NCBI GenBank assembly: GCA_944323885.1
Contig: CALUUD010000001.1
Coordinates: 434,001 to 498,000, forward strand
Reading direction: 5' to 3'
Length of the DNA stretch: 64,000 nucleotides
DNA from: an uncultured Helicobacteraceae bacterium
Lineage (GTDB): Bacteria > Campylobacterota > Campylobacteria > Campylobacterales > Helicobacteraceae
Below the pieces are notes generated by a model. It made no database searches, had not been told where the DNA came from, and saw only the letters and a list, made by a program, of their open reading frames with translations. Shown one piece after another: positions 33,046-39,100 of this stretch. The translations under genes and the position numbers were made by a program. Numbering within the stretch: the first letter of the stretch is position 1; each line of letters begins with the position of its first letter.

Positions 33046-33216
33046 TCACACAAAGCTAATTTTTGCAATCTCTCTTTCAATCTCCAAGCTTTTATGCAAA
33101 GTTTGGGTAATTTTTTGAAAATACTCAAAGTTGATTGCTTCATCTTTGTGGCTTTTTAGATATTTATCTAATACTTGATACCCTCCAATTTTATACTCCC
33201 ATACACTAGATTCCAT
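33046..33216 (-). pseudogene. Duplicate of the 3' end of the type IIG restriction-modification gene
   Basis: Positions 33048-33214 align without gaps with 36121-36287, the last codons of the intact restriction-modification gene, with about six mismatches. The minus-strand frame is open for 56 codons from an ATG at 33214-33216 to TGA. It encodes SSVWEYKIGGYQVLDKYLKS and ends EIAKISFV. Four of the six differences are synonymous. Homology stops at the ATG, and no ribosome-binding site precedes it. It is best read as a remnant or recombination scar. Confidence 0.85.
33048..33214. repeat. 167-bp direct repeat, copy A (copy B at 36121-36287)
   Basis: The two copies are in the same orientation, 3073 bp apart with no indel, at about 96 percent identity by hand alignment. 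They bracket the DUF3800, HsdR-remnant, hydrolase and membrane-protein genes. Recombination between them would delete that whole block and leave a single intact 3' end. Confidence 0.85.
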
Positions 33217-33719: not shown

Positions 33720-33791
33720 TCACGCAAAGTTCCTAGCTATCAATAAGACTTCAAGGAAGGCTTCCCTTAGTGGATAGATAGCATAGGTCAT
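33710..33791 (+). ncRNA. Candidate structured RNA or REP-like element with extended -10 promoter
   Basis: TATGCTACAAT (33709-33719) is a near-ideal extended -10 box on the plus strand. Downstream, CCTAGCTATC (about 33732-33741) pairs with GATAGCATAGG (about 33775-33785) with one bulge. A nested hairpin is formed by AAGGAAG/GCTTCCCTT. The predicted RNA runs antisense into the 3' end of the DUF3800 gene. On the minus strand the same DNA encodes a 23-codon frame whose ATG overlaps the DUF3800 stop (TGATG, 33720-33791). I cannot tell which reading is real. Confidence 0.4.
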
Positions 33792-34489
33792 CAATAATAC
33801 TCCTTTTGTCTATCTTTAGTCATTACTTCTTCTTCTAAAATGTATTTTGATATTTGTTGATAAAAGCTATCATCATCTTTTTCATATTTTCTAAAAATAG
33901 CCCAATTAATATAATCTATAATTTGCAAATTAACACTAGATGCACTTGCATGATGAAAGACATCATATTTTGCATTAATGTTATTTGCTTTAAGATACTG
34001 CTTAATCCCACCTTTGATAGCGACAACTTGCTTATTTTTATTATTTTTTACTGCAAGGTTGTCGGTAATGATAATAAAATTCTGCTTGATTTTAATTTTT
34101 TCCAAAAGTCTTGTAATTGCATATTTAAGATTTTCAGAATAAAATGTAGCACTATCTTGCGTTTTTTCTGGAAAGACTTTTGGCTTTTCTAAAATGTAAG
34201 AGTAAATCTTAATATCTTCTTGTTGAAAACTTGAAATCAGTTCAAAAAGTTGTTTTTTAATATGCTTATTATCTTCACAGGCATGAAATCTTTCAATATC
34301 TAATCTCTTTTCATTTTTTGGTAATGTTAGGCTTCGCTCTAGTAAATCATATCGATAATTCGCAATAGTCTCATGTAGCCTAAAAGGACGCTTTTTAACC
34401 AAAAAGCCAAACATATAATGTTTAGAGCCTTTTTGGCTAAAATCCATATCGCCAGACTCATCTACAAAAATATATAAGACCCCACTCAT
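33791..34489 (-). CDS. DUF3800 domain protein
   Basis: A 232-residue protein of the DUF3800 family, predicted to have an RNase H-like fold. The N-terminal acidic motif YIFVDESGD is at residues 6-14. FIIITDNLAVKNN and HHASASSVNLQIIDYINWAIF match the family's later conserved segments, which hold further acidic and serine residues. Function is not established; the family is common in mobile and defence regions. It stands alone on the minus strand inside the accessory island, with 104 bp to the HsdR remnant upstream. Confidence 0.78.
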   Translation of the reverse strand: MSGVLYIFVDESGDMDFSQKGSKHYMFGFLVKKRPFRLHETIANYRYDLLERSLTLPKNEKRLDIERFHACEDNKHIKKQLFELISSFQQEDIKIYSYILEKPKVFPEKTQDSATFYSENLKYAITRLLEKIKIKQNFIIITDNLAVKNNKNKQVVAIKGGIKQYLKANNINAKYDVFHHASASSVNLQIIDYINWAIFRKYEKDDDSFYQQISKYILEEEVMTKDRQKEYY

Positions 34490-34678: not shown

Positions 34679-35596
34679 TCAATTCCTTGAGATCATTCCT
34701 AGATAATAACCATTGAGTGAAATATTTCCTATTTGCTGGGTTGGTTGCTCATTTGCTTTCAATATATCACCATTTAAAATTTTTGTAGAATAATTTTCAT
34801 TTGATACATATATTTTACATTCATTATCTTCTACTTCAAACGTTATATTGCCAGCAGTGTTTTGGGTAATTGTATTAAAATTTTTAGCATAATCATAAAA
34901 CAAATTGTTTGAAGGACCTTCTCCAATAATAATCAAAGTAGGATTTAACTTTTCAAGCCATTCTTCAGGTATTTTTCCACTTTTTCTCCCATGATGGGGT
35001 GCAAATAGCACATTAACTTTTGGTAAATCCACATAGATTTTTTCCATAAATTTTGTTTCTAAATCACCCATCCACATAAAATTAATTCCATGAGCTTCCA
35101 ATAAAATAATGGGAGATATATTGTTAGGACTTTCTTTATTTTTTACTTTTTCTAGTTCGCTTATAAAAGCTTGATCATCTACATCAGGCCACAAAATTTT
35201 AATACCCGCAGATTTTCTTTCATTACTGTCTAGATTCATCCAGTGCCTTTTACAATTTTTTTTAATATAAAAAGCTTTTTTGGAATCTCTTAATTTACAA
35301 TAATGTTCAAAATCTTGATCATAGTCTTCTTTTTCAGCTTTATTTTTAACACAATAAAAATTTAATATTTTAAATCTTTCATCCAAGCTTTTTAATCCCA
35401 TAATATGATCCTTATCAGGATGAGTTGAAATAAATCTATGTATTGTTTTATCATAAGACATTATTTTTATATCATTAAATATTTGCTTTCTATTGTCATC
35501 GCATATACAACAATCAATTATTGTAAAATTATCACTATGATGTCTAATAGCAAACATATCGCCATTGCCTACAGAAAATGATTTTATAATTGTCAT
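34679..35596 (-). CDS. ComEC-like metallo-beta-lactamase-fold hydrolase
   Basis: A 305-residue protein without a signal peptide. The metal-binding motif STHPDKDHIMGL (residues 57-68) has the HxDxDH form of ComEC-type and related hydrolases. Further ligands lie in FMWMGDLE and VLFAPHHGRKSG. This suggests a phosphodiesterase or nuclease acting in the cytoplasm; substrate unknown. Its start overlaps the stop of the membrane-protein gene by 4 bp, so the two proteins are probably made together and act together. Located in the restriction-modification island. Confidence 0.75.
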   Translation of the reverse strand: MTIIKSFSVGNGDMFAIRHHSDNFTIIDCCICDDNRKQIFNDIKIMSYDKTIHRFISTHPDKDHIMGLKSLDERFKILNFYCVKNKAEKEDYDQDFEHYCKLRDSKKAFYIKKNCKRHWMNLDSNERKSAGIKILWPDVDDQAFISELEKVKNKESPNNISPIILLEAHGINFMWMGDLETKFMEKIYVDLPKVNVLFAPHHGRKSGKIPEEWLEKLNPTLIIIGEGPSNNLFYDYAKNFNTITQNTAGNITFEVEDNECKIYVSNENYSTKILNGDILKANEQPTQQIGNISLNGYYLGMISRN

Positions 35597-36093
35597 TTTT
35601 TCTCCTTATTATTTAATGCATTATTAATTCTTTTTATTACATATGAGTTTTGCTTCATATGTGAAAGTAAAAATAGAATTGAAAGCAATACAAATACAAT
35701 TAAAATTTTATAATCATTAGCTTGCCATTCATTTGGATAAATCATAAATGCATTTGCAATTGGTATCACAAGAAAACTTATCATTAATGTTCTATATGAA
35801 TTGCTAATTTCACTAAATAATTCTATCTTGTTGTCTATTTTTGATGCTTCAATATATTTTTTATAGTCTTCTCTTGGTAAGATTTTTATTTTTATTAAAA
35901 TAGGTTCTATTACTAATGATGATATTCTGCTTATACATAATCCTACAAAATAACACATAAAAGCATTTACAATAATTTCTTTATGAAATATGTTATAAAT
36001 ACTAAGTTTTTCTAAACAATAGCAAACAATAACACCAGGAAATAAGTAGTTAAAAATATTATAATTTGACAACTTATTGATTAGTTCTCCCAT
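35593..36093 (-). CDS. Small multi-pass membrane protein coupled to the hydrolase
   Basis: A 166-residue protein with about four hydrophobic segments: near residues 13-28 (IFNYLFPGVIVCYCLE), 41-66, 106-122 and 129-145. The N-terminal NYNIFNYLFPG motif is of a kind I associate with small membrane proteins in accessory regions, but I cannot name the family. The C-terminus is basic (NNALNNKEKK) and probably cytoplasmic. It is 25 bp downstream of the restriction-modification gene and overlaps the hydrolase gene by 4 bp. Confidence 0.65.
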   Translation of the reverse strand: MGELINKLSNYNIFNYLFPGVIVCYCLEKLSIYNIFHKEIIVNAFMCYFVGLCISRISSLVIEPILIKIKILPREDYKKYIEASKIDNKIELFSEISNSYRTLMISFLVIPIANAFMIYPNEWQANDYKILIVFVLLSILFLLSHMKQNSYVIKRINNALNNKEKK

Positions 36094-36118: not shown

Positions 36119-39100
36119 TTACACAAAGCTAATTTTTGTAATCTCTCTTTCAATCTCCAAGCTTTTATGTAAAGTTTGGATAATTTTTTGAAAATACTCA
36201 AAGTTGATTGCTTCATCTTTGTGGCTTTTTAGGTATTTATCCAATACTTGATACCCTCCGATTTTATACTCCCATACACTAGATTCTACTTTTTCAAAAT
36301 ATAGGCTTTTGTTTATAAAAAGCTCTTTTGTCTCTTTGGCATAAGTGATTTTAGAGATTTTTAAATCCTTGTTTGCAGTATCTTTATAAAGTGGCTCTCC
36401 GATAGGTGGTAAATCCTGCTCTTTTAGCAAATGCAGTGTGATGAGACTATTTCCCAAAGCACTAAGCTGTAAAAATAGCTCTTTAGATTCTACAAAGGGG
36501 ATTTTTGGAAAATCCACTTTCAAAAAGTCGATGTATTTTTCTCTATAGTCTTTGTGAAAAAGCATGGCATAGAGATAGCCTAGTATCGTTTCGGGGCTAA
36601 AATGCTCTTTGTATTTAGAATCTATAAACTCTCTAAAGCTTGGCGTGAAATTTTCTATCTTGGTATTCATATAATCAATATAAAGCGGAAATAAATTGCT
36701 TCCGCTTCCGACTAAATGTAAATCCATTAACTCATCTACGACAAATATATTGTCAAAGAATTTTCCGCAACTACGATAGCAAATCAACCCTAAATTATCT
36801 TGCAACATAAAATCTTGTATCTTACCAGCAGGACGACCTAAGAAACCTTTAGATTTTCCAGTATAAAATGTGTATCTAAAGTCAAAAGGCTTAAAATGAA
36901 CTTTTTTAATATACTTTTCATTACATTCTTTAGAAATTAATTCATCTTTTGCCTTTAAAATGCTCCAGTCATTCGTATCTTTTGGCAAATCAAAATCTAA
37001 CCTGTTTTCTTCTATCTCTTGATTGGTAAATTTTGCTATGCGCTCTTTTAATTCATCTTTGGTCTTTGCATAGCAAAAATCATCTCTATAGGTACAAATC
37101 CCAAGCCCCGTCATAACAAAAATATCTTTTATAGATTTGCAAGATTTATAAAAACTCTGTACATTGTTGTCTTGTTTAAAAAATTCATAATGTGGATATT
37201 TTGGGTTAAATTTGTTCCATTCTATAGAATCTAGATTATTATCTTTTAAAAAATCATACTTTGCCTTTCGCTCTCCATATAGATCAAAATAAAATACTTC
37301 ACATTTTGGTTCATTTGAAATAGTTTGGTTATTGGTTTTTATAAAAATAGAGATACAAACACCTTGCTTGATGTCAAATACATTTTGATCGTTGCTTCCA
37401 TCTTCACATTTTTCTTTTTTATTTGCATCTCCATGTAGATTGATAATGTATATTTTATTGAAAGAATTTAACAAGCTCCAGCGCATTCCACGCATTGTTG
37501 GGGCATCTAAAAAACTATTATTTGTTATTATTCCTAAGATTCCATTGTTTTGTTTATCAATTTTATTCTGCGCAAACCTAATAAACTTTATATAATCATC
37601 ATTTAAACGATGTTTTCTTTCTTTTATATTTATAAGTTTATTATTTTCATTAATTCCGCAAAATTTGTATGCATTAATATCATAGTTATTTGTGGATAAT
37701 GCGTTATAGGGTGGATTGCCTGTGATGATTAGGATTTCTTGCTCTTTTAGTTTTTGGGCTTTTTTGAATTCCTCTGTAAGCTCTATCATACCTGCAAAGA
37801 GATTTCTTTGCTTGTCTAACTCATCATTTTCTTTACTAAAATAAAGCGTGTTTGTGAGGGTAATATTTAGACTTTCATTATCTTTTAGCTCTGTGTCAAA
37901 TTCTTCTTTTAGACTTTGGGAGATTTTTAGGTGTGCGATAGTATAAGGAGCGATAAGAAATTCAAATCCATAGAATCTATCAATCAAAGCTTTTGGATTA
38001 TATTTTGGGCTGTTTTTATTGCTCTCTTTTAGGGCTTTTCTAAAGGATTCTAGCAAGAATGTCCCTGTGCCTGTGGCAAAGTCTAGAAGTGTGATAGCTT
38101 TATCACTCATTGCTTGATTTAATCCTGTTTTATTAAAGTCTTTTTGTAGTATCAAATCTATGGCATTGATGATAAAGCTTACCACTGATGCAGGGGTATA
38201 ATACACACCTCTTATCTCTCTAAGCTTAGGATCATAACTAGCTAGAAAAGTCTCATAAAAGTGCAAATAAGGGTCTTTATGCAGAGAATCTCCAAATAAA
38301 TCTTTTTGTGAGATTTTATTAAGCTCTTTTATCATTTCGCTTATATCTATGTGATTGATGATAGAGATGATTTCTTCTATAAGCCATTTGATAGAATCTA
38401 GCTCCTCTAGGTTGTCCAAAAATCCACTCATCGCTCTAATGAGTGGGAAAGATTTTGGGATAAATTTTTTGGCATTGACTAGATTGATGTTTTCTTGTGT
38501 GGTGTTGTTTAGGCGTGAGAGAAAAAGGCTATAAGTAAGCGTTTGAGCAAAGCTATCGCAAAAATTTTCATATTCTAACTCTTTGTATAAAACTTCTCTA
38601 AAGGTATTAAAAAGGCTTAGTATATATTCATTTGTATCATTTAGAAGCAATTCATCTTTTAAGATTCTAGTCCTTAGGGCTAGGGTATCAGCAAAGTCTT
38701 TGGCATTTGCTATGGGTTTTGGATTTTTGGAAAAAAAGAGAGTGAAAAACTCTAAGAGTTCTTGGGCTTTATCTTGTAAATATATATTGTCTTTGGTGAT
38801 AGCTTTTAGCTGTGAGTATTCACAAAGCCTAAGCTCTTTTGCAATGATGGGGTTATTTTTATTATCAAGCCCTATGAGACAAAACCGCAGATAATCTGTG
38901 AGTATGAGATTTAAAGAGAGGTCTAAATATTTTTTGATTTGTTGTGTTTGGAGAATCTTACTTAGATCTTCATTGATGCGTTTGTTTTCGATATATCCAA
39001 GTATCAGAGAATCTTTTGTGATGAGAAAATCTGGCGCACCTCTGCCTTCTTTGTCATTGTTTGGTTCGTGAATGATTTTTATATTTGTATATGCTACTTT

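Follow-up and report, generated by a model that had tools for sequence, protein, structure and literature searches.

A PADLOC-catalogued pair of a ComEC-like hydrolase and a membrane protein as a candidate anti-phage module with an exchanged membrane partner

The gene pair and its surroundings

The window analysed here is a stretch of 64,000 nucleotides from an uncultured Helicobacteraceae bacterium (contig CALUUD010000001.1, positions 434,001 to 498,000). It carries a gene for a small membrane protein that overlaps the gene for a hydrolase of the metallo-beta-lactamase (MBL) fold (Table 1). The earlier note had described a four-segment membrane gene overlapping an HxDxDH MBL gene by 4 bp, and both open reading frames (ORFs) lie where it placed them. 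They are not chance frames, considering their near-full-length matches to curated models and the recurrence of the same arrangement across phyla. A promoter scan, which carries little information here, found 46 where 37 were expected.

Table 1. Features of the locus, in window positions
Feature	Position	Strand	Basis
Membrane protein gene (PDC-M48A), 166 aa	35593-36093	-	ORF call, PADLOC model PDLC04670, AlphaFold2 model
ComEC-like MBL-fold hydrolase gene (PDC-M48B), 305 aa	34679-35596	-	ORF call, PADLOC model PDLC04673
Stop/start overlap of both genes, 4 bp	35593-35596	-	ORF coordinates; spacing -4 also in 15/64 related pairs
HPDKDH metal motif (HxDxDH), residues 59-64	35405-35422	-	same H, D, D and H in each of 78 aligned homologues
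PHHGR motif of ComEC-type MBLs, residues 200-204	34985-34999	-	alignment of 78 homologues
Type IIG restriction-methyltransferase gene, open over 1030 aa	36119-39211	-	IIG model match, E 9.9e-291
DUF3800 gene, downstream of the pair	33791-34489	-	DUF3800 match, E 1.1e-11
Truncated duplicate of the IIG 3' terminus, 166 bp	33048-33213	-	96% identical to 36121-36286
Second direct-repeat copy, at the 3' terminus of the intact IIG gene	36121-36286	-	repeat comparison

The earlier note took the pair to be undescribed and recognised no named system. It is, however, already catalogued in PADLOC as PDC-M48 A/B: the PDC-M48A model matches residues 1-161 of the 166 in the membrane protein (E 1.6e-59), and the PDC-M48B model matches residues 1-295 of the 305 in the MBL (E 5.4e-138). 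With an A match, a B match and adjacency all present, the window pair belongs to PDC-M48; it has the same two-gene layout of adjacent genes, and no difference excludes membership. The PDC entries of PADLOC came out of a 'guilt-by-embedding' analysis as putative defence candidates, and the majority lack validation (PMC12988326). We found no experimental phage test of PDC-M48 and no publication that names it.

In an alignment of 78 homologues the nuclease-type metal site of the window MBL is intact, with residues D28, H59, D61, D63, H64, D178, H201 and H202 invariant; the protein has GDLE at residues 177-180, and a hydropathy search found no transmembrane (TM) segment in it. The fold is ComEC-like as judged from an AlphaFold2 model (pLDDT 91.5), whose best match is the ComEC beta-lactamase-like domain 9ic4 (Z 24.4, 244 aligned, rmsd 3.0), a Mn-dependent DNase (PMC12455585). 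An insertion at about residues 79-131, following the first motif, is ordered in the model (pLDDT about 94-98 in the blocks that cover it) and highly conserved, and low confidence is confined to about residues 271-290, near the C-terminus. NCBIfam and PHROGs searches returned weak ComEC, Avs1a and 6A-MBL resemblances, and the RTasMBL, LmuA and Avs1a models match at E 6e-9 to 5e-5.

The model of the membrane protein (pLDDT 91.3) has four helices of membrane length, at residues 10-30, 40-68, 89-117 and 127-165, and a short helix (77-86) separates the two pairs. The positive-inside charge pattern would place the middle loop and the C-terminus on the cytosolic side. The matches from a fold search with this model were weak helical bundles (Z at most 6.7) and included no clear known fold, so that any pore-forming or lytic activity of the protein is putative. 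Its PHROGs match is a phage family without a name.

The neighbours reported for the pair, an intact type IIG gene, a DUF3800 gene and a restriction remnant, are all real. The IIG gene lies 25 bp upstream of the pair on the same strand, and co-transcription is possible; the DUF3800 gene is treated here as a neighbour outside the module. More precisely, the remnant duplicates the IIG 3' end in direct orientation. The two copies of this repeat are 3,073 bp apart and bracket the DUF3800, MBL and membrane genes, an arrangement consistent with a scar left by insertion, or by recombination, where the restriction gene ends. The annotated genes beside the pair are those for the IIG enzyme, the DUF3800 protein and an SMP-30 protein. 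In genomes of the same genus priA-uvrB is conserved, and because the sequence after uvrB varies and trpA is found elsewhere or on different contigs, no clean empty site was found among them.

Pairing and partner exchange in relatives

An MBL alignment searched against about 85,000 species genomes uncovered 179 relatives, and the best 80 were kept, these being the closest relatives as chosen by two peptide patterns. The MBL relatives come from many phyla of both bacteria and archaea. A multi-TM gene (at least two predicted TM segments, called with a simple hydropathy window rather than a dedicated predictor) lies within 150 bp of the MBL gene in 64 of the 80 loci, against a background rate of 38/687 (5.5%) in the same loci, so that the co-occurrence of homologues on which the earlier note made its reading depend is indeed found. 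A wider look adds L037, L055, L075, L081 and L095, bringing the loci with a multi-TM partner to 69/80; the others comprise two with a patatin, one with a metallophosphoesterase, several contig ends and a few without a clear partner. Among the 64 pairs, the partner is upstream on the same strand in 43, downstream in 19 and convergent in 2, and the commonest spacing is the -4 bp seen in the window.

The pairing also holds when approached from the membrane side. This check covered genome G076, P2-like phages, two plasmids, another two genomes of the order to which L020 belongs, and viral contigs (four, L192-L195, and ten of the L010 type, L177-L186). An adjacent MBL is present in every one of these loci except L186, where the 4.2-kb fragment stops at the membrane gene, but the loci are not all independent, since the MBL-anchored scan also returned several of the viral contigs, and L177-L180 nearly duplicate one another. 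A viral-contig scan with the window membrane protein as single query gave no match, whereas closer queries did match. Two M48A searches, one within the family to which G435 belongs and one within the order of G421, found none but carry little weight.

The relationship between the two components is not strictly one to one. The MBLs found beside M48A belong to several MBL subfamilies, and at about seven chromosomal loci two different MBLs accompany one membrane gene. Loci with two MBLs, in the order MBL2-TM-MBL1 and similar orders, are L081, L095, L075, L031, L051, L053 and L069. On a Rhizobium plasmid (L019:1414-5909), a patatin, a second MBL, a JAB-peptidase-like remnant and an M48B-type MBL occur in one stretch.

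The membrane partners themselves fall into a cluster of about 165 aa (M48A), a cluster of about 250 aa (WGGxPT) and smaller groups, and none of 33 non-M48A partners (0/33) matches a PADLOC model at E<=1e-5. When partner type is placed on the MBL tree, 33 changes are needed, where the least possible is 6, a figure close to the shuffled mean of 39.7. The well-supported branches of the tree alone force at least 10 changes for M48A and at least 11 for the WGGxPT family, and sister MBLs of Bradyrhizobium (support 100/99) carry different partners. The first hairpins of M48A and WGGxPT are remotely similar (hhalign probability 88%, E 3e-6), and the two families may, judging from their sequences, form one distant superfamily. 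Some of the partner changes may therefore be divergence rather than exchange; the repeated alternation of the two on the MBL tree stands with or without common ancestry. What is new here is that the MBL is the constant part of the module while its membrane partner switches again and again between families that differ in size: the PDC-M48 catalogue entry has the M48A partner only, whereas this MBL is also found with membrane families outside PADLOC and with patatins.

The WGGxPT family (cluster A4, for example L042:6919-7665) consists of proteins of about 250 aa with four helices and the motifs WGGxPT...LR and ENIxYGFxRN; it is absent from PADLOC and has no convincing Pfam match.

A patatin gene lies beside the MBL gene at three loci, 9 bp upstream in L032, 29 bp downstream in L098 and with a 1-bp overlap in L123, the last being a prophage contig; in all three the patatin phospholipase gene takes the place of the membrane partner. 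At L076:3950-5101, a gene for a calcineurin-like metallophosphoesterase overlaps the MBL gene by 4 bp and is possibly a further partner type.

Defence setting and distribution

The earlier note had also asked whether the homologues sit in defence islands. Around 20 of the 80 MBL loci, 148 neighbour genes, with the MBL and its membrane partner left out of the count, match 166 PADLOC families at E<=1e-20; a control set of 148 genes, taken far from the loci on the same contigs, matches 3. The number of families exceeds the number of genes involved, as many models can recognise a single restriction gene, and three of the neighbour genes are not independent, since they are a second M48B-type MBL. 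The matches include restriction types I-III, AbiEii, SoFic, HmaA and a CBASS cyclase.

The pair is carried by IMG/VR contigs, prophages and plasmids. In P2-like (pro)phages its relatives lie between the replication endonuclease gene gpA and the portal gene gpQ, a site described as a defence hotspot of these phages (PMC9122126), and the P2-type pair occurs in 44/5,426 E. coli genomes. Within the phylum of the window organism, strong M48A matches are found in two of the 397 genomes searched. The window genome encodes, elsewhere, a separate true ComEC with the PF03772 competence domain. The pair was probably acquired horizontally. The constant pairing, the enrichment of defence genes over the matched control, the carriage by prophages and at the P2 hotspot, the patchy presence and the separate ComEC together make it probable that the pair is an anti-phage defence module, as the earlier note had proposed.

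Known systems and possible mechanisms

The MBLs of Hachiman, AVAST and Canu are pro-nucleases that are unlocked by proteases (PMC12799240). The window MBL falls in the same ComEC-like MBL family as the gated pro-nucleases (Hachiman/AVAST/Lamassu/DRT and Canu; Tuck et al., PMC12799240) and likewise has an intact nuclease-type metal site. However, the gated enzymes have disordered active-site insertions with protease sites, whereas the insertion of the window MBL is ordered and conserved and its partner is a membrane protein. No trypsin-like or caspase-like protease was found among the annotated neighbours of the pair, and no protease family match either. The likeness to ComEC extends over the MBL fold and the HxDxDH and PHHG motifs, but the window MBL has no competence or OB domain and no TM segment seen, its membrane component being a separate small protein; the PF03772 competence TM domain matches neither window protein. 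The validated antiviral systems of the P2 hotspot that the text of PMC9122126 describes include no MBL. The hydrolase-TM system of Rousset et al. was set aside because its hydrolase is HAD-like; it comes from the P4 locus.

Which of the two proteins, then, is the effector? The earlier note had seen an effector-like enzyme joined to a small membrane protein; the pairing stands, but the roles may be reversed, since it is the membrane part that is exchanged. Considering that the MBL is constant while its partner is variable and sometimes a phospholipase, we tentatively favour, at a probability of about 0.45, a PDC-M48-type two-gene module in which the MBL is the switch and the membrane partner is the effector. 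A cytosolic ComEC-like MBL phosphodiesterase would be the constant sensing or processing component and would meet the nucleic acid of the invader. It would then switch on the membrane-embedded partner, either via the conserved insertion or via a released product; the activated partner would damage or depolarise the membrane, and the infected cell would stop before phage release. The more general proposal, that a ComEC-like MBL switch controls interchangeable membrane-damaging effectors (four-helix families or patatins), part of them outside PADLOC, is more doubtful. The small number of patatin partners counts against the MBL as switch.

Perhaps the roles are instead those of the characterised defence MBLs (HamM, Avs1a and CanC), which are themselves DNase effectors (PMC12799240) and so favour the opposite assignment. 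The MBL would then be a DNase that its partner keeps inactive at the membrane; this partner would act as a tether or as a sensor of phage adsorption, injection or membrane change, and the freed MBL would cut phage or host DNA. The related MBLs of Hachiman, AVAST and Canu are activated DNases (PMC12799240), the nuclease-type active site and the predicted ComEC-like fold point the same way, and ComEC itself couples an MBL fold to a membrane channel. On the other hand, the patatins that replace the membrane protein in three loci fit an exchanged effector better than a sensor, and the constant part would here be the effector, unlike in CBASS-type modular systems. We therefore place the MBL as switch first, with the MBL as DNase effector close behind, a serious but less probable reading.

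Two further explanations are weaker. The small size, tight coupling and carriage by plasmids and prophages would suit a membrane toxin held in check by an MBL that serves as antitoxin, detoxifying a nucleotide or a small molecule, such that inhibition of the MBL by a phage frees the toxin; but the free gene order of the pairs, and the several loci with two MBLs per membrane gene, are unlike usual operons of this kind and make such a system unlikely. A housekeeping role in DNA uptake or transport is suggested by the annotation of the E. coli relatives as 'ComEC/Rec2 family competence protein' and by the ComEC fold match. It is very improbable, because the pair is patchy and mobile and its relatives lie among defence genes; a competence role was rejected, as the genome has its own ComEC elsewhere.

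For PDC-M48, these observations turn a catalogue entry into something testable, with several kinds of exchanged membrane partner around a constant nuclease-fold core, and the P2-like E. coli prophage relatives are convenient for testing. If the MBL is indeed the switch, a fold that has so far been shown to act in defence as a DNase executioner would gain a second role, and the uncatalogued WGGxPT membrane family would join the known effectors.
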